DNA of 12,962 nt from Planctomycetaceae bacterium. Its GTDB lineage: Bacteria > Planctomycetota > Planctomycetia > Pirellulales > Thermoguttaceae. The notes under the pieces were generated by a model. That model was not told the origin of the DNA, did not search any database, and saw only the letters and a program-made list of their open reading frames with translations. The stretch is taken from positions 1 to 12,962 of the forward strand of contig JAIRLW010000561.1 of NCBI GenBank assembly GCA_031259095.1. Reading direction: 5' to 3'. This document shows positions 1 to 12,703 of this stretch, one piece after another; the first letter of the stretch is position 1; every line of letters starts with the position of its first letter. The position numbers were made by a program, and so were the translations under genes.

Positions 1-38
1 ATTACCTCATTAAAAACATAAACGAATCATGAGGTAAT
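1..38. repeat. 10-bp perfect inverted repeat at window edge
   Basis: ATTACCTCAT (1-10) is followed, after an 18-nt AT-rich spacer, by its exact reverse complement ATGAGGTAAT (29-38). It could form a hairpin or be part of a larger element cut by the window edge. There is no U-tract, so I do not call it a terminator. The rest of 1-175 holds no open reading frame that I believe in. Confidence 0.5.
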
Positions 39-105
39 GAGGTCGGTTTTGGTGGGATTCATTGCTACTGAGGTTTTTTGTTAGGAAAAAATAAGGTTGA
101 AAATA

Positions 106-121
106 AGGTTTGCGAAAACCT
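106..121. repeat. short hairpin with GNRA-type loop
   Basis: AGGTTT and AAACCT enclose a GCGA loop upstream of the DUF58 gene. A direct repeat of AAATAAGGTT lies just before and overlapping it. The stem is only 6 bp and has no downstream T-run, so its role is unknown. Confidence 0.3.
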
Positions 122-140
122 GTTAAAAGACGTTTTGGAA

Positions 141-159
141 AATTCCACTGATATATTAC
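141..159. mobile_element. isolated IS66-like MITE terminus
   Basis: AATTCCACTGATATATTAC here is identical to the right terminal inverted repeat of the 286-bp element at 8230-8515. The adjoining internal sequence matches neither end of that element. The opposite terminus is not found between base 1 and 140, so either the element extends left of the window or only one end survives. The terminus lies 16 nt before the DUF58 start codon. Confidence 0.7.
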
Positions 160-3800: not shown

Positions 3801-4997
3801 TTATGGATGAGTTTCTCTTGGTTTATTTGTTGCCTGATCCCAATAAGGCGACAAACGCCGTAATCTCGCAACAATTTCAGGAAATTTATCAATAACAAAA
3901 TCAATTTCGCTTTCTGTTGTGTAACGACTCAGGCTGAACCGGACAGAACCATGTTTTGCCGTAAAAGGAACATCCATTGCGGTTAAAACATGCGACGGTT
4001 CCAGCGAACCGGAAGTACACGCGGAACCGCTTGACGCACAAATTCCAATCGCGCTCAATTGATACAAAATTCCTTCGCCTTCAATATAATGTACAGCAAT
4101 ATTCAGCGTGTTCGGCATTCGTTCCACTCCAGAACCGTTGACTTCGACATTGGGAATTTTTTGTACAATTCCGGCTTCCAATTTATTGCGCAAATATTCC
4201 ATACGTTTCCGGTCTTCTTCGTGAGTTTCGGCGGCACGCTCAACCGCTTTTGCCATTCCGATAATATACGGAACATTTTCCGTTCCGCCGCGCCGTCCCA
4301 ATTCCTGATGTCCGCCAATCAGTAACGTCCGGCATCGCGTTCCGCGCCGAAGATACAAACCGCCAATCCCTTTGGGCGCATGAAATTTATGTCCCGAAAA
4401 CGCTAACATATCGACGTTGCAAAAATTTTCGTCCAGCCGAATGGGAATTTTTGTCATGGTCTGTGTTGCATCGCAAAGAAACAAAATGGACGAATCGGTT
4501 TCTTTGACAACCCGCGAAAGACGTTCAATCGGAAACACCACGCCGGTTTCATTGTTCGCATGCATTATCGAAACAAGAAGCGTGTCGCTCCGCAATTCCC
4601 GTACAAATTCTCCAAGATTCAAATTACCTTGACGGTCAACGCCGATAAAGGAAACTTCAAATCCTTCCCGTTGTAACGATTTTCCGACTTCGAGAACGGC
4701 GGGATGTTCTACGGCGGTCGTGATCAGACGCCGACGTTCAGGATTGGCTCGAATCGCGCCGAAAATCGCGGTGTTGAGACTTTCTGTTGCGCAAGAAGTA
4801 AACAGCAATTCCGATGGATGCGCCGCACCCAAAAATCCGGCAATCAATTCGCGTGAAGACTCAACCGCATGTTTTACCGGTTTAGCTGCGTCATACATGG
4901 AACTCGGATTGAAATATTCGTTCCCGAAAAACGGAGTCATCGCGTCCCGAACTTCGGGCGCAACCGCTGTTGTCGCATTATTGTCAAGATAAATCAT
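3801..4997 (-). CDS. cysteine desulfurase, NifS/IscS family (class V aminotransferase fold)
   Basis: A 398-residue PLP enzyme, the usual length for the family. It should convert L-cysteine to alanine and leave a persulfide sulfur for Fe-S cluster, tRNA or cofactor synthesis. The N-terminus MIYLDNNATT is the classic start. His98 (VEHPAV), Asp176 and Gln179 (CDATQT) hold the cofactor, and Lys204 in S-G-H-K-F-H forms the Schiff base. R-R-G-G-T-E-N (235-241) and the catalytic Cys327 in S-S-G-S-A-C-T-S-G-S complete the set, with the short loop and L-E-P-S-H-V-L following. The motif set favours the NifS/IscS (group I) branch over SufS. No scaffold gene (iscU/nifU) or regulator is adjacent, so nifS and iscS cannot be told apart. 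It is encoded opposite to and convergent with the LysM gene; no clear Shine-Dalgarno sequence. All key residues are intact, so it is expected to be active. Confidence 0.95.
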   Translation of the reverse strand: MIYLDNNATTAVAPEVRDAMTPFFGNEYFNPSSMYDAAKPVKHAVESSRELIAGFLGAAHPSELLFTSCATESLNTAIFGAIRANPERRRLITTAVEHPAVLEVGKSLQREGFEVSFIGVDRQGNLNLGEFVRELRSDTLLVSIMHANNETGVVFPIERLSRVVKETDSSILFLCDATQTMTKIPIRLDENFCNVDMLAFSGHKFHAPKGIGGLYLRRGTRCRTLLIGGHQELGRRGGTENVPYIIGMAKAVERAAETHEEDRKRMEYLRNKLEAGIVQKIPNVEVNGSGVERMPNTLNIAVHYIEGEGILYQLSAIGICASSGSACTSGSLEPSHVLTAMDVPFTAKHGSVRFSLSRYTTESEIDFVIDKFPEIVARLRRLSPYWDQATNKPRETHP

Positions 4998-5000
4998 TTT

Positions 5001-5032
5001 AGTGAATAGTTAATAGTGAGTAGTGAATAGTT
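5001..5032. repeat. heptanucleotide tandem repeat, about 4.5 copies
   Basis: Units AGTGAAT, AGTTAAT, AGTGAGT, AGTGAAT and a partial AGTTG lie 4 nt upstream of the cysteine desulfurase start codon (minus strand). The array therefore occupies its immediate 5' untranslated or promoter region. The same unit family recurs at 8165-8206. Confidence 0.85.
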
Positions 5033-5077
5033 GTAATTGTTCATACGCAACATAGTATTGTAACAAAAAACGGTAGG

Positions 5078-5098
5078 CGACCTTTCGCCGAAAGGTCG
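5078..5098. repeat. REP-like perfect hairpin
   Basis: CGACCTTTCG and CGAAAGGTCG form a perfect 10-bp inverted repeat with a single central base, inside a wider GC-rich context ending in GTGCCGG. It is similar in composition to segments at 10271-10295 and 12911-12937, suggesting a small dispersed palindrome family. No T-run follows. Confidence 0.6.
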
Positions 5099-5122
5099 TG
5101 CCGGTTGAGTCGTCCCTGCCTG

Positions 5123-5162
5123 TGATTGCCTCCCCAAAATTCGAAATAATCAGAAAAATTCC
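5123..5162 (+). repeat. 40-bp dispersed intergenic motif, copy A
   Basis: One of four copies in the window (others at 8560-8591, 10392-10428 and 12539-12579). The core reads TTCGAAATAATCAGAAAAAT and is preceded by TGATTGCCTCCCC, a left half shared mainly with the copy at 12539-12579. The 91-bp MITE begins 20 nt downstream. No gene starts downstream on this strand. Confidence 0.6.
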
Positions 5163-5174
5163 CCTGAAATAGTA

Positions 5175-5281
5175 CTATTTTTGTAATATACCAGTGGAAT
5201 ATTTATTTTTTATATTGCCCCTTCAGTGCCAATACTTTTTTAACCTCAAACAATAATTCCACTGACATATTACCTATTTTT
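5175..5281. mobile_element. 91-bp IS66-like MITE with 8-bp target duplication
   Basis: The element proper is 5183-5273. Its ends GTAATATACCAGTGGAAT and ATTCCACTGACATATTAC are inverted repeats with 2 mismatches, and it is flanked by exact 8-bp direct repeats CTATTTTT (5175-5182 and 5274-5281). Reverse-complemented, it matches the two outer arms of the element at 8230-8515: 59 bp on one side with 3 mismatches and 32 bp on the other with 2. It is far too small to encode a transposase. GTAA-type ends and 8-bp duplications are typical of the IS66 family. The right duplication abuts the stop codon of the large TPR gene. Confidence 0.88.
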
Positions 5282-8071
5282 TTATTCGAGTTCCTTTACC
5301 AGTTTTTCATCCCATTCACGTAGTTGCTTGTTTGAATTGAATTCGGGATGTTGTGTTAATAATTTTCGTTGTTGGGTGCGAAGAGTTTTGAGTTGAACGG
5401 GATCGGTTTGCCAATACACGCGGATATCCAACACTTGGCAAAGTTCCAACCATGTTTCCGGTGACGGAAATTCATGAATCGTTTCAATATCTTTCGCATA
5501 ATCATTCATCAATTCCATAGCATTATCGGTTTTTCCGCGTTTGAACAGAAACAAGGCGTAAGAAAGATGAACGCGCCGGAACATAAAGTAATCGTCCGAA
5601 GTCATCTCACTGTTTCGAAAACGTTCCCGAATCAGTTTCCGCGCCTCATCGAATAACAGCAACGGTCTCATTGTATCAAAAACATCTCCCGACACTTTGG
5701 CGTAATTGATCAACGAATGCGTAAGACAACGATCCGCATCAGGAATTTCCTGTCGAATCAAATCACGCGCCAAATTGATTTCCCGATCGAAAAGATGTTC
5801 CGCTTCCGTAAAACGTTTTATTGTTATACACGTATTCGCCCAATATTGTAATGCCCGCCGAAGTTCGTCCGCATAATAATTATAACTATTTTGTTCTGGT
5901 TCTTCCAAATCTTCTTCAGAAATAGACCAATCCGATTCTCCCGCTTCCGCTGCAAAATATTTATGTTGAGCCTTGAGTTTGTTCAGGTGAAGCAGGAGCA
6001 ATTCCCACTGTTCCACCGCAAACGCCCATTCTTCACACGCTTGTTCAGGTTTATTCATCAACATAAAAAAGGTTGCCCGTGTTTTATGGAAAAAAGCGGA
6101 CTTCACACAAAAAAATTGATTGATGTTTTGTTTTTCCGAATTACTTTGCTGTTTCCTGATAAGTTTAATTCCTTTCGTACACACGTCCATTGCCATATCA
6201 AGCCAACTTTGAAAATCTTCCGGTTCGTGTTGTGTTACACTTTCAGGCAGATGATCGGAATCCATCTCCGAAAGTCTTTTAAGCCGTCGAACAATTGTTT
6301 CCGGCAAATTGCCGTCCGACATCACTTCCTCCGAAAAATTACTGCTCCTGAGAATAATTTCAACAAAATTAGCAAATTGCGAATACGCGAGCAAGACATC
6401 GAATACCGCCAATTTATTACCGTCATTAAAAAGTCCGACCACATCGTCCATTGCATTTTGGAACAATATCATTGCATCACCGAGACGATGTTGCCGAGTC
6501 TGTAGGACCGCAGTATATTCCAATACTTCACTCCACCTTATTTTTGCAACATGAATATTTGTTGAGTCGGCTTCTTCGTCGGCAATGGATCGGAACAAAC
6601 GCATTGCCCGAATCGCATCTTTTTCCGCTGCCGAAAGATCGTCTTGCTCTTCCCATAACGTGCAGCGTAAACGATAAATAGACGCCAATTCGTCCCGAAA
6701 TTCCAACTTCCCGTCATCAACTACCGATTCAAGTATCTTCATCGACCCATTGATCAAAATAAACGCTTGTTCCGATTTTCCCAGTATTTGAAGAATCCCA
6801 ATCATTCTTCGGTACGCGGCAATGAGATTCGGTAAAATTTCGTCGTAACCCGCTTCCAAACGTTGGTGAAGAGTCGGTAACGCTTTTTCCTTCATCACCA
6901 GAGCATCTTCCAATTTTCCCTGAGCGACCAGCATGTTCGCCAGATTGAGCCGGACAATTCCAATCGAATACGGAATAAAAGTTTCATCTTCATCATCTTC
7001 CGGTCGAAATTCTGTAGCATATTGATATTGTTGCACCGAATCTTCAAACGACGTTGACGCTTCGTCATAACGTTTCATTGTGGTCAGGATAGTGCCGCGA
7101 TGCATCAACACATTCGCCAAACCAATACGAAGTGCATAATTTCCGGCTAACGGCATTTCGTTTTGGCGTAGAATTTCGTAATAAACGTCACGGCAACGGT
7201 CAAACTCTTCCAACGCCGCCGCAATATTACCGCGCCGTTCAAGAAGCATTCCATGCTGTAAATAAAGCGTTGTCAACATGATTTTCGCCTGCGATTCTCC
7301 GTCGGCAACCAAATTCCGAACAATCTGAATCGACTTTCGTAACGAACTAAACGCTTGCGGAAGATTGCCGAGTTGTTCGTAGAGTTTGGTCAATTTGAGT
7401 AACGCCTGAATTAGAATCGGGTACAGTTCATTGGCTCCGTCGGTGATTCCTTGATGAACCGTTTCAAACGCTTCTTGAAAATCAGGAAGAGCTTTTCCGG
7501 CGTCTCCGCTTTGAATTTTAAGATCGCCGGAGGTGAGGAGTGCGGGAATGAGTTGCAGCCGATATTCCGAGCCGTCGATATGAGTTAAACGCCGCCAGAT
7601 ATTCACTGCCTGCTCTTGCGCCGCAATTGCCGCCGAATAAGCCCCAAGAGGATGAATCAAAATTTTCGCTTTATTCGCCAATGCCATCGCCAAACCGTTT
7701 TGTGTGACGGGATTATTTCGGTCGGTTTTTTCGATGAAGTAGCGAATTGCTTCGTTCAACGCAACCAAACCCGCTTCCGCGCCGCGGTGAAACAAGGTGA
7801 TTGTTGCCCGAAACAGAAAACAAGGAATCAGAAACATCTGAAATTCGTCCTGATCATACTCTACCAATTTTTCAACAATCTCAATTGCTTCATCAACGCG
7901 AAAAATTGCATCTTCAAACTGCCGATTAACCGCCGAATTCTGAGCCGACAACAGCAACACTTTTGCCAGTTCCGGTTTCAGATAAAACTCGCCGGCAGCA
8001 ATTTTAGCACGAAGACGTACAACCGCTTCTTCAGGAGTTTCATGGTAATATTGGTTATCAAATTCATTCAT
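5282..8071 (-). CDS. large tetratricopeptide-repeat protein
   Basis: 929 residues from the ATG at 8071. The frame stays open to a TTG at 8104, with another ATG at 8083; none has a clear Shine-Dalgarno sequence, so the start is uncertain by up to 11 residues. There is no signal peptide or membrane helix, so it is expected in the cytoplasm. It consists almost entirely of helical TPR-like units of unusually long period (~48 residues) at about 35-69, 81-114, 127-160, 173-207, 218-252, 265-298, 315-349, 371-404 and 417-450, continuing less regularly to the C-terminus. Typical units read L-x-x-G-x-x-x-x-A-L-x-x-F-x-x-A followed by an acidic spacer. No enzymatic domain is recognised; a scaffold for protein-protein contacts is inferred. 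The repeat style matches the smaller TPR protein at 10543-11886, so the two are probably paralogues. The specific partner is unknown. Confidence 0.88.
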   Translation of the reverse strand: MNEFDNQYYHETPEEAVVRLRAKIAAGEFYLKPELAKVLLLSAQNSAVNRQFEDAIFRVDEAIEIVEKLVEYDQDEFQMFLIPCFLFRATITLFHRGAEAGLVALNEAIRYFIEKTDRNNPVTQNGLAMALANKAKILIHPLGAYSAAIAAQEQAVNIWRRLTHIDGSEYRLQLIPALLTSGDLKIQSGDAGKALPDFQEAFETVHQGITDGANELYPILIQALLKLTKLYEQLGNLPQAFSSLRKSIQIVRNLVADGESQAKIMLTTLYLQHGMLLERRGNIAAALEEFDRCRDVYYEILRQNEMPLAGNYALRIGLANVLMHRGTILTTMKRYDEASTSFEDSVQQYQYATEFRPEDDEDETFIPYSIGIVRLNLANMLVAQGKLEDALVMKEKALPTLHQRLEAGYDEILPNLIAAYRRMIGILQILGKSEQAFILINGSMKILESVVDDGKLEFRDELASIYRLRCTLWEEQDDLSAAEKDAIRAMRLFRSIADEEADSTNIHVAKIRWSEVLEYTAVLQTRQHRLGDAMILFQNAMDDVVGLFNDGNKLAVFDVLLAYSQFANFVEIILRSSNFSEEVMSDGNLPETIVRRLKRLSEMDSDHLPESVTQHEPEDFQSWLDMAMDVCTKGIKLIRKQQSNSEKQNINQFFCVKSAFFHKTRATFFMLMNKPEQACEEWAFAVEQWELLLLHLNKLKAQHKYFAAEAGESDWSISEEDLEEPEQNSYNYYADELRRALQYWANTCITIKRFTEAEHLFDREINLARDLIRQEIPDADRCLTHSLINYAKVSGDVFDTMRPLLLFDEARKLIRERFRNSEMTSDDYFMFRRVHLSYALFLFKRGKTDNAMELMNDYAKDIETIHEFPSPETWLELCQVLDIRVYWQTDPVQLKTLRTQQRKLLTQHPEFNSNKQLREWDEKLVKELE

Positions 8072-8130
8072 AGCAATGAGCATTAGAAAAAGTAAATTTG
8101 TCAAACAACCCCAAATTTTTTAACCACGTG

Positions 8131-8136
8131 ATTATA
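8131..8136 (-). promoter_or_regulatory. putative -10 box of the large TPR gene
   Basis: A perfect TATAAT on the minus strand, 59 nt upstream of the chosen ATG. No good -35 hexamer lies 16-18 nt before it, so the assignment is weak. Confidence 0.3.
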
Positions 8137-8164
8137 ACTCAAAACTCCAAATGGGAAAGAGAGG

Positions 8165-8206
8165 AATAGTTAATAATGAATAGTTAATAGTGAATAGTAC
8201 ATAGTT
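8165..8206. repeat. heptanucleotide tandem repeat, 6 copies
   Basis: Six 7-bp units run AATAGTT, AATAATG, AATAGTT, AATAGTG, AATAGTA, CATAGTT, upstream of the large TPR gene and 16 bp from the target duplication of the 286-bp MITE. The unit is the same family as at 5001-5032. Confidence 0.85.
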
Positions 8207-8221
8207 ACAGAGAATGAATTT

Positions 8222-8523
8222 GTCCCATCGTAATATATCAGTGGAATTATTGTTTGAGGTTAAAAAAGTATTTGCCCTGAAGGGGCAACAAGATTATAGC
8301 CTACCCCAACGGGGTAGGTTCAAGGACCATCACCAACCGAAGCCCTGAAAGGGCATCAAGATTATAAACGGTTCGTCATTTAATTATTTTCCTGTTGCCC
8401 TTTCAGGGCGTTGGGTTGACGGAGGGAACTTAACCCTACCCCGTTGGGGTAGGCTATAATACTAGCGCCCCTTTCGGGGCTAATATAAAAAATAAAAATT
8501 CCACTGATATATTACGTCCCATC
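8222..8523. mobile_element. 286-bp IS66-like MITE with 8-bp target duplication
   Basis: The element proper is 8230-8515. Its first 19 bp GTAATATATCAGTGGAATT and last 19 bp are perfect inverted repeats, and exact 8-bp direct repeats GTCCCATC flank it (8222-8229 and 8516-8523). The outer 59 bp (8230-8288) and 32 bp (8484-8515) correspond to the whole 91-bp element at 5183-5273. The middle 195 bp are extra and consist of REP-like hairpins. There is no coding capacity. GTAA ends plus 8-bp duplications indicate mobilisation in trans by an IS66-type transposase not present in the window. Confidence 0.9.
8293..8460. repeat. symmetric REP/BIME-like hairpin cluster inside the MITE
   Basis: A long inverted repeat: arm 8293-8357 and arm 8394-8460 around a 36-nt centre. 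Each arm carries a CCTACCCC/GGGGTAGG hairpin and a GCCCT/AGGGC hairpin. A further small GCCCC-type hairpin lies just outside on each side (8274-8286 and 8467-8480). The spacer word AAGATTATA recurs between hairpins (8290-8298 and 8359-8367). No gene is present. Confidence 0.85.
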
Positions 8524-8559
8524 TTAGTCTCTATCGTCTCTTCTGTCCTTAAAAACTTT

Positions 8560-8591
8560 TCCCACATTCTGAAATAATCGGAAAAATTTTT
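8560..8591 (+). repeat. dispersed intergenic motif, copy B
   Basis: The core TCTGAAATAATCGGAAAAAT is followed by TTTT; the left half is weaker than in the other copies. It ends 10-11 nt before the putative -35 box of the oxidoreductase gene, the same spacing as copy C has to its -35 box. Confidence 0.6.
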
Positions 8592-8601
8592 GAGTTCGGT
8601 C

Positions 8602-8630
8602 TGGAAATGGAAATGAAAAACCGGTACAAT
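8602..8630 (+). promoter_or_regulatory. putative promoter of the oxidoreductase gene
   Basis: A -35-like TGGAAA (8602-8607) and a -10-like TACAAT (8625-8630) are separated by 17 nt. Transcription would start near 8637, placing the inverted repeat 8644-8664 at the very start of the transcript. Hexamer matches are moderate. Confidence 0.4.
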
Positions 8631-8643
8631 GTTCGGATTCGTA

Positions 8644-8664
8644 TGTGGTTTGTGTCAAACCGCA
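8644..8664. promoter_or_regulatory. candidate operator (inverted repeat)
   Basis: TGTGGTTTG and CAAACCGCA, 9-bp half-sites with one mismatch around a TGT centre, lie just downstream of the putative transcription start and 40 nt before the start codon. Size and symmetry fit a dimeric repressor site. An RNA hairpin is an alternative reading. Confidence 0.4.
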
Positions 8665-8703
8665 TGATGTTGGATATTTATTATCTCAAAAAGGAGTCTG
8701 TTT

Positions 8704-10212
8704 ATGATGAAATCAACTCGCCGTAATTTTCTGAAAGCCGCAACAGTAACCAGTGTTGGTTTTATGGTTGCGGAGGGCAATGCTCAGGAAGCAGGTCATT
8801 CCCCTGATTCCCCAAATGAAAAACTTGGCGTCGCCTGTATTGGCGTTGGCGGCAAAGGAGGCGGTGACGCCGACAATGCCGCAAAATTCGGAAACATCGT
8901 CGCAATCTGCGATGTTGACAAACAAACACTGGAAAATAAAGGAAAAGGGGAAGCCTATCTCAAAGCGAAACAATATGTCGATTTCCGTGAAATGCTCGAA
9001 AAGCATGAAAAGGAAATTGATATTGTTACCATCAGTACGCCTGATCACATGCACGCGGCTGCAACCTTAATGGCAATGCGGATGGGGAAAAGTTGTTATA
9101 CCCAAAAACCATTGACTCGAACCATCTACGAAGCCCGAAAACTCGCTGAAGTGGCTAAAGAAACAGGTGTTTGTACACAAATGGGCAATCAGGGAACAGC
9201 GTTAGATTCGTCCCGTATGGCCATTGCCCAACTCAAAGCCGGAGTGATTGGTAAAACGTTGGAAGTGTTCGTTTGGTCGAATCGTCCGGTTTGGGCACAA
9301 GGTCCTAATCGCCGAATGACGTTGAATCGTTTTGCAAAAGACGCACGCGAAAAAATGACTACCGACAAAGCGGAAAAAGCAATCTGGGACAAATTCGCCG
9401 ATATTCAACGGAATTTAGGTCGTCTTGATTGGAAACACTGGATCGGAACCGCCAAATATCGTGAATTTTGGCCCGGAATCTATCATTCGTTCCAATGGCG
9501 CGGTTGGTGGGATTTTGGCAGCGGCGCACTTGGCGATATGGCTTGTCATCAGGTTACGGTTCCGTTCGCGGCTTGCGGTTTGAAAGACCCGACGTGGGTT
9601 CGAGCCAAATCAACCGGTCACGATTTCGATAGTTATCCGGCGAGTTCTATTATCGAATTTGAATTTCCGGCTAACGAAGAACGCGGTAAAATTCCGTTTT
9701 GGTGGTATGACCGCAGCGGCAATCGCCCGCCGCAAGACGTGTTTGCTCCTTACGGAGTTGAAAAACCGGCAAACAGCGGCGTGTTGATTGTCGGTGAAAA
9801 AGGCGCGTTCTACAGCAGCGATGATTATTGCGGGAAATACGAACTGCGAGCCAAAGGCGGTGAAATCATTCCGCCAATCCCCGAGGTGAAAGTCGATTAT
9901 GCCGAAAAGAAAGGGAACAACGATACTGATAATATGTACGAGTTGTTCCGTGCCGTGAAAGCGAAAGACCCGAAAATTTGTCATTCAAATTTCATTGACC
10001 GTGCCGGACCGTTGACGGAAACGATTCTGCTTGGCAATCTTGCTGTTTGGGCGGCTGCTGAAGGCGGCGCCGAAGGCGCAATGGGCGAATGGGGCGAAAA
10101 GATCGAATGGGACGCCAAAAATCTTGTCGTAACCAATTTGTCCAGTCTCAAAACTCCGGGTGTTGCCGGTCTTATCAAACCGATTTACAGTGAAGGTTAT
10201 CGGCTTGACTAA
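8704..10212 (+). CDS. Tat-exported Gfo/Idh/MocA family oxidoreductase
   Basis: 502 residues. An AGGAG ribosome site 7 nt upstream selects the ATG at 8704 over the one at 8707. The N-terminus has a twin-arginine signal (S-T-R-R-N-F-L-K at 4-11, then a hydrophobic stretch and Ala), so the folded protein, with bound cofactor, should be exported. Residues 41-160 are a Rossmann NAD(P)-binding domain: GVGGKG at 47-52, Asp70 ending strand 2, and T-P-D-H-M-H at 112-117. The family's E-K-P motif reads Q-K-P (134-136), a substitution I recall as common in planctomycete members. The C-terminal domain holds G-A-L-G-D-M-A-C-H (274-282), with His282 a likely catalytic or metal-contacting residue. Substrate is unknown; relatives act on sugars, inositols and glycosides. 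It appears monocistronic, with its own promoter, candidate operator and a downstream hairpin. Confidence 0.93.
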   Translation: MMKSTRRNFLKAATVTSVGFMVAEGNAQEAGHSPDSPNEKLGVACIGVGGKGGGDADNAAKFGNIVAICDVDKQTLENKGKGEAYLKAKQYVDFREMLEKHEKEIDIVTISTPDHMHAAATLMAMRMGKSCYTQKPLTRTIYEARKLAEVAKETGVCTQMGNQGTALDSSRMAIAQLKAGVIGKTLEVFVWSNRPVWAQGPNRRMTLNRFAKDAREKMTTDKAEKAIWDKFADIQRNLGRLDWKHWIGTAKYREFWPGIYHSFQWRGWWDFGSGALGDMACHQVTVPFAACGLKDPTWVRAKSTGHDFDSYPASSIIEFEFPANEERGKIPFWWYDRSGNRPPQDVFAPYGVEKPANSGVLIVGEKGAFYSSDDYCGKYELRAKGGEIIPPIPEVKVDYAEKKGNNDTDNMYELFRAVKAKDPKICHSNFIDRAGPLTETILLGNLAVWAAAEGGAEGAMGEWGEKIEWDAKNLVVTNLSSLKTPGVAGLIKPIYSEGYRLD

Positions 10213-12538: not shown

Positions 12539-12579
12539 TAAAATTTTTCTGACTATTTCGGGATTTAGGGAGACAATCA
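12539..12579 (-). repeat. dispersed intergenic motif, copy D
   Basis: On the minus strand it reads TGATTGTCTCCCTAAATCCC then GAAATAGTCAGAAAAATTTT, closest to copy A in its left half. Its left end overlaps the first degenerate unit of the 21-bp tandem repeat. No gene starts downstream on this strand. Confidence 0.6.
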
Positions 12580-12703
12580 GCCATAGATTAAAGACGATCA
12601 GGCGCAGATTAAAGACGATCAGGCACAGATTAAAGACGATCAGGCGCAGATTAAAGACGATCAGTCACAGATTAAAGACGATCAGGCGCAGATTAAAGAC
12701 GAT
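12572..12703 (+). repeat. 21-bp tandem repeat (five full and two partial units)
   Basis: The unit is ATTAAAGACGATCAGGCGCA plus G, beginning at 12587, with a degenerate partial unit before and a partial unit after. Units alternate between GCGCAG and CACAG forms, suggesting duplication as 42-bp blocks. The 21-bp period equals seven codons and every frame that stays open gives a heptad. Confidence 0.92.

Follow-up and report, generated by a model that had tools for sequence, protein, structure and literature searches.

According to the accessible parts of the respective papers, high-copy MITEs of bacteria include the Correia elements of Neisseria, with more than 120 copies, and ERIC of the Enterobacteriaceae, with up to 711 copies in Photorhabdus luminescens (PMC10969869). 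MITECca01 of Cardinium cOegib, which is derived from IS982, is approximately 240 bp long and is present in 169 mostly intergenic copies that make up 3.5% of the chromosome (PMC9769881). For IS66, the ISBst12-group element ISDge4 from Deinococcus geothermalis is described with one ORF, an 8-bp repeat and the ends GTGACTACTCAGCA and GTAACTGCTCAGCA (PMC12898284), and two IS66 elements with 8-bp repeats have been tabulated (PMC3281130). In the accessible text of the papers found, MITEs are assigned to other families or to none, or are mentioned in general, and the word IS66 is absent from the main text of the MITE review PMC10969869. Since no IS66-tied MITE was found in the open literature searched, outside of which lie subscription papers and ISfinder, the family described below may be the first MITE family tied to IS66.

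The window analyzed here is the whole stretch of 12,962 nucleotides of contig JAIRLW010000561.1 from a Planctomycetaceae bacterium (assembly GCA_031259095.1, genome G000). It contains a 286-bp element in the intergenic space that separates a TPR-protein ORF (5282-8104, leftward) from a Gfo/Idh/MocA oxidoreductase ORF (8704-10212, rightward). The span 8222-8523 takes in both copies of the target duplication, while the element proper occupies 8230-8515. Its ends are identical, in inverted orientation, over exactly 19 bases, and the flanking duplication is GTCCCATC with a length of 8 bp; lengths of 6, 7 and 9 to 13 bp fail. Under the assumption of independent bases, 4e-5 perfect 19-bp inverted pairs spaced 60-700 bp apart are expected in the window, and 7e-10 when an exact 8-bp duplication is also demanded. 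The first-pass annotation had described a 286-bp element with perfect 19-bp ends and an exact 8-bp duplication, which proved exact on re-measurement; the further statements that it lacks coding capacity (no stop-free stretch exceeds 43 aa) and that it was inserted between two genes likewise held. It is thus short, has no transposase gene, and carries terminal inverted repeats and a duplication of fixed length, as MITEs do. We consider it very probable that this feature is a MITE which carries the ends of an IS66-family element resembling the single-gene ISBst12 kind and which is moved by an IS66 transposase. The element and the further family members in the window are as follows:

8222..8229, no strand: target duplication, left 8-bp copy GTCCCATC
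8230..8515, no strand: non-autonomous element (MITE), 286 bp
8230..8248, plus strand: left terminal inverted repeat GTAATATATCAGTGGAATT
8497..8515, minus strand: right terminal inverted repeat, 19 bp, perfect
8516..8523, no strand: target duplication, right 8-bp copy GTCCCATC
5183..5273, no strand: second family member, 91 bp, with CTATTTTT at 5175-5182 and 5274-5281 (8-bp duplication)
1..159, minus strand: third copy, truncated at the contig start and belonging to another subfamily; its terminus occupies 141-159

As far as the accessible descriptions go, the likeness to ISDge4 and the ISBst12 group consists of the GTAA....TCAG ends, the 8-bp direct repeat and, as far as the degraded partner copy L194 described below suggests, a single IS66 transposase ORF. 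The window element differs from ISDge4 in that it has no gene and holds only the ends in common, and in that its terminus is confined to this planctomycete genus among the 60 genomes searched. It resembles the Correia and ERIC elements as a high-copy bacterial MITE, and MITECca01 as a short, amplified, non-autonomous element that has its ends in common with a parental IS. In contrast to the window family, however, MITECca01 has an IS982 parent and was not found in the other sequenced Cardinium strains (PMC9769881), whereas the window terminus is common to 14 species-level genomes of one genus and carries several size classes and cores. The family is new and heavily amplified and belongs to a known kind, the MITE.

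The insertion signature was assessed on 140 unique nearest terminus pairs from this genome and its relatives, with at most 4 mismatches, a spacing of 50-700 bp and both flanks present. An exact 8-bp duplication was found in 34 of the 140 pairs, compared with 2, 1, 3, 0, 0, 0 and 0 pairs for the control lengths of 5, 6, 7, 9, 10, 11 and 12 bp, respectively, and 0-1 matches remained when the right flank was displaced by 1-6 bases. The 106 pairs without an exact duplication may be old, nested or mismatched. Relaxing the terminus to at most 6 mismatches gave 37 elements with exact duplications; these have the same ends and lengths of 58-587 bp, and their duplicated targets had an A+T content of 76% versus 56% in the window. 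In the sample from the window's own genome, 151 unique termini yielded 21 elements with duplications at up to 2 mismatches, 19 of which were exact.

Matches to the joined flanks were found for 11 of the 44 elements with both flanks, three of the 11 including the element's own locus, and five elements were viewed in detail. The L010 copy in G000 lies in a repeat and is flanked by AAAATCTT, while its counterpart L006 in the same genome has AAAATCTT once and no element; a further copy of this site, L024, shows a one-base difference. Likewise, the copy at L110 2396-2555 (AATAATTC) has an unoccupied partner, L150, with the 8-mer present once and no element, and comparison of L110 202-360 with L106 revealed a clean unoccupied site save for one base in the 8-mer. 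For L262 and L008 the joined flanks did not align cleanly at the junction. These paralogous unoccupied sites show that the 8-bp duplication arises on insertion. At the window locus itself, right-flank orthologues in the genus align only from approximately 8576, and the left gene was not found in any of the 19 right-flank loci examined, within up to 1.5 kb upstream of each. The closest left-flank orthologue (L314 in genome G014) is aligned to approximately 8176 and then diverges. Because the relatives' flanks cannot be aligned near 8222-8523, the GTCCCATC site is unreadable there, and no empty GTCCCATC allele was found among them. For the 91-bp member, compared by means of window positions 4600-5600, the flank match ends before the element in seven loci of relatives, and no empty site was seen in these.

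The assembly of G000 comprises 3.84 Mb in 653 contigs and is 78% complete. The genome-wide search for the 19-bp terminus that had been proposed with the first-pass annotation returned 560 termini in it at up to 3 mismatches, and none with a reversed-pattern control. If each copy has two ends, this corresponds to about 280 copies, and the true number is probably higher, since contig ends would cut copies. Among the 40 of 444 candidate places that were scored, the closest other copy to the 286-bp element is 98% identical over 280 bases; the copy at the contig start is 98% identical to L264, another copy in the same genome. The 286-bp insertion appears to be recent, judging from its intact ends and the 98%-identical copy rather than from a dated empty site.

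At up to 2 mismatches the terminus occurs in 14 of 60 genomes, namely the window's own and 13 of 20 genus-mates. At this threshold it was found neither in the other seven genus-mates nor in any of 39 genomes from other genera of the family and order. The highest counts were 1037 (G018), 968 (G020), 950 (G005), 760 (G014) and 358 (G004), and the lowest non-zero count was 4 (G017). Among the matches listed, the exact terminus is present in MAGs named 'Planctomycetaceae bacterium', such as Cd354_bin63, Pcl387_bin141 and Ncb351_bin97; from their isolate codes, these MAGs may come from termite guts. No exact terminus was found in viral contigs.

Also among the matches listed, a terminus lies 101-119 from the contig start in eight G000 contigs (C57, C123, C254, C344, C368, C376, C405 and C517), which thus begin equally far inside a copy. 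As contigs, the window's own included, begin inside copies, the MITE family probably contributes to the fragmentation of MAG assemblies.

The transposase family searched for in the genus genomes was IS66. The profile PF03050 (DDE_Tnp_IS66) had matches at E <= 0.001 in 11 of 21 genus genomes, exceeding the cut-off in 10, and its search of G000 gave no match. E values were 2.6e-24 for the L194 ORF, 1.9e-17 for L188 and 4.1e-12 for L196; PF03050 did not match a fourth ORF, the N-terminal piece of L188. The NCBIfam model transpos_IS66 was the best match for both proteins scanned, yet below its cut-off. In the loci examined, the sole two-ended, near full-length IS66 copy is L194 in G018, a degraded element of approximately 1549 bp (1574 with a second end-like stretch) with 3 mismatches in each end and no target duplication. 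Its PF03050 ORF starts 72 bp inside the left end, and the frame is broken further on. Since a gene 72 bp from the end leaves no room upstream for tnpA and tnpB, the partner is likely a one-gene IS66 element of about 1.55 kb like those of the ISBst12 group, known from broken or partial copies.

Partial copies have the same ends. In L223 (G018) and L211 (G005) an exact 19-bp end is followed by the IS66 gene, and G014 holds IS66 pieces ending in GTAATATATCAGTGGAATA, one at the 5' side (L188) and two at the 3' side (L196 and L202). In G000, contig C24 (L207) begins inside an IS66 element and contains its first 203 bases with the terminus GTAACATATCAGTGGAATA; it was found with a sister protein query, and its identity to the G018 protein is 98% across 43 aa. 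In four genomes, among them the window's own, a total of five IS66 5' ends can be aligned, with the alignment starting at the terminus and running on into the gene; for the 3' side, three ends, drawn from two genomes, align as far as the same terminus. Four of the five 5' ends start with GTAA (L194 has CTAA), as do all three 3' ends. The proposal that the window element has IS66-like ends is thereby supported: sister species carry IS66 transposase genes between these ends, with PF03050 matches in L194, L188 and L196, and G000 carries only a 5' fragment. Its companion expectation, a full IS66 element with tnpA, tnpB and tnpC and the same ends, was borne out in part: IS66 DNA with these ends exists, but the partner looks one-gene and the 78%-complete own assembly has no intact copy.

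Several loci extend this picture. The 616-bp element L189 in G019 has variant ends (3 mismatches) and retains the 3' part of an IS66 gene; no target duplication could be read for it, and it looks like a deletion derivative. Nor could a target duplication be read for the IS66 copies themselves. Other PF03050 loci, such as L184 (G008), L185 (G013) and L186 (G015), have no such terminus at up to 5 mismatches. Among the matches listed, an IS66 3'-end query in G000 gave terminus-sized stretches only, and G020, with its 968 termini, had no IS66 match by profile or protein. Other termini, of the GTAACYATTCAGT type, were observed at 2411 and 2832 of L314 and at 1200-2388 of L184, around the G008 PF03050 match, which suggests further IS66 terminus families in the genus. 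By eye, the longest ORFs next to termini in the loci examined look like ordinary genes; beside one terminus (L131) there is a DNA methyltransferase-like ORF.

Between its ends, the 286-bp element carries six short GC-rich stem-loops, three left units and three right mirror units:

8274..8286, no strand: core stem-loop A GCCCTGAAGGGGC
8300..8318, no strand: core stem-loop B CCTACCCCAACGGGGTAGG
8342..8354, no strand: core stem-loop A' GCCCTGAAAGGGC
8397..8409, no strand: A' mirrored exactly GCCCTTTCAGGGC
8435..8453, no strand: B mirrored exactly CCTACCCCGTTGGGGTAGG
8467..8480, no strand: A mirrored imperfectly GCCCCTTTCGGGGC

This mirroring of the left stem-loops by the right ones makes the element a long, imperfect palindrome. 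Its core has no evident likeness to IS66 beyond the ends, and the element is therefore not a plain deletion derivative. Other family members, namely L262 and the copy at the contig start, have different cores. At up to 3 mismatches, 82 core units are present in the whole genome of G000. In the region 8050-8750, one terminator-like site was found compared with 0.7 expected, on the minus strand within the element, and two promoter-like sites compared with 2.1 expected, both outside the element.

In a rival reading, the ends come from a different family whose transposases also produce 8-bp duplications (IS6/IS26-like, IS256 or IS1595 elements, for example), and the IS66 genes next to certain termini are chance neighbours. 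Such chance neighbours would be favored by the density of the termini, whose spacing in several relatives is approximately 4-6 kb (1037 termini in the ~5.5-Mb G018 and 968 in the 4.0-Mb G020). A weak match of the IS6 profile (E 8e-4 and 1.4e-4, far below the cut-off) points in the same direction, as does the failure to find, in the loci examined, an intact IS66 copy that has both ends together with a target duplication; this outcome is expected, albeit not proven, to result from assemblies breaking at repeats. However, the terminus lies at a similar distance from the gene in all five 5' ends and likewise in the three 3' ends, and these can be aligned with one another. Chance neighbours would not align in this way, and the continuous alignments therefore indicate that the terminus belongs to the IS66 element. 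Moreover, the published ends of ISDge4 show, in the accessible text, the GTAA....TCAG pattern together with an 8-bp repeat (PMC12898284). An origin of the ends from another family is thus very improbable.

Slightly less probable still is that the feature is a REP-like or RNA-coding palindromic repeat, the hairpin being selected in RNA or DNA and the movement being incidental. The folding energy of the element is far below that of shuffled sequences (z = -16.7) and the core stem-loops are kept across 13 aligned copies, an alignment from which L262, of another subfamily, was left out. Yet any near-palindrome would fold likewise, and covariation is weak: a kept double change was seen in 5 of 87 pairs, 4 of the 5 in the terminal repeats, with a covariation term of -0.27. 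Covariation accordingly gives no support to selection on the hairpin, and the window contains no Rfam match at gathering thresholds. Nor are the core units free-standing, since 79 of 81 distinct units (at most 4 mismatches; this genome and relatives) have a terminus within 320 bp and the remaining 2 are equally close to a sequence end, in a sample of examined loci that is enriched for termini. Finally, L262 combines another core and the same ends with an exact duplication.

For the preferred reading, a MITE with IS66 ends, the following route can be proposed. A full IS66 element elsewhere in the cell would encode the DDE transposase, which would bind the ends of approximately 19 bp common to the short element and move the latter. 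Insertion would take place at an 8-bp staggered cut, the repair of which would yield the 8-bp duplication. We infer from these sequence comparisons that an IS66 transposase probably acts in trans on short elements and that the IS66 source is presumably active now or was so recently. The spread of the MITE and its many relatives with the same ends in G000 and in sister species apparently uses the transposase of a larger IS66-type transposon with the same ends. A much broader scenario, which we regard as unlikely, is a genus-wide radiation of IS66 MITEs, in which unrelated cores were captured between one set of ends, a few transposases drive hundreds of insertions per genome, many intergenic regions have been reshaped, and the hairpin core is kept for an element or host function, for example as a site of RNA processing or a bidirectional stop for transcription. 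With 358-1037 termini in each of five of the 20 genus-mates, 560 in G000 and none found in seven of the 20, the genus offers a natural system for studying the handling of short substrates by an IS66 transposase and the conditions under which a family of this sort expands or is kept out.

In the alignment of 13 copies, a 9-bp insertion is mirrored in both arms of L010 and is present in one arm only of L008 and L018, as if copies had exchanged arms. L006 and L012 each show an identical change in both ends. Arm-to-arm copying as a general process was rejected, as there were 0 symmetric versus 57 one-sided positions among the 37 elements with exact duplications, which is fewer symmetric changes than in shuffled end pairs (mean 3.3).

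Further repeats were observed in the window. An A+T-rich tandem repeat with the 14-bp unit GAATAGTTAATAGT lies at 8164-8207, just to the left of the 286-bp element; it has dozens of matches in G000 and genus-mates and seems to form another dispersed family, with no relation to the IS66 ends. The repeat at 1036-1159 (TCGAC...ATCGATTTTGGTCGATTTCAGTCGAA) also adjoins the MITE copy in L262, showing that the MITEs are interspersed with other dispersed repeats. After the NrdR-like gene, at 12571-12703, a 21-bp unit is repeated 6.3 times in tandem and keeps a reading frame open (RLKTI repeats).
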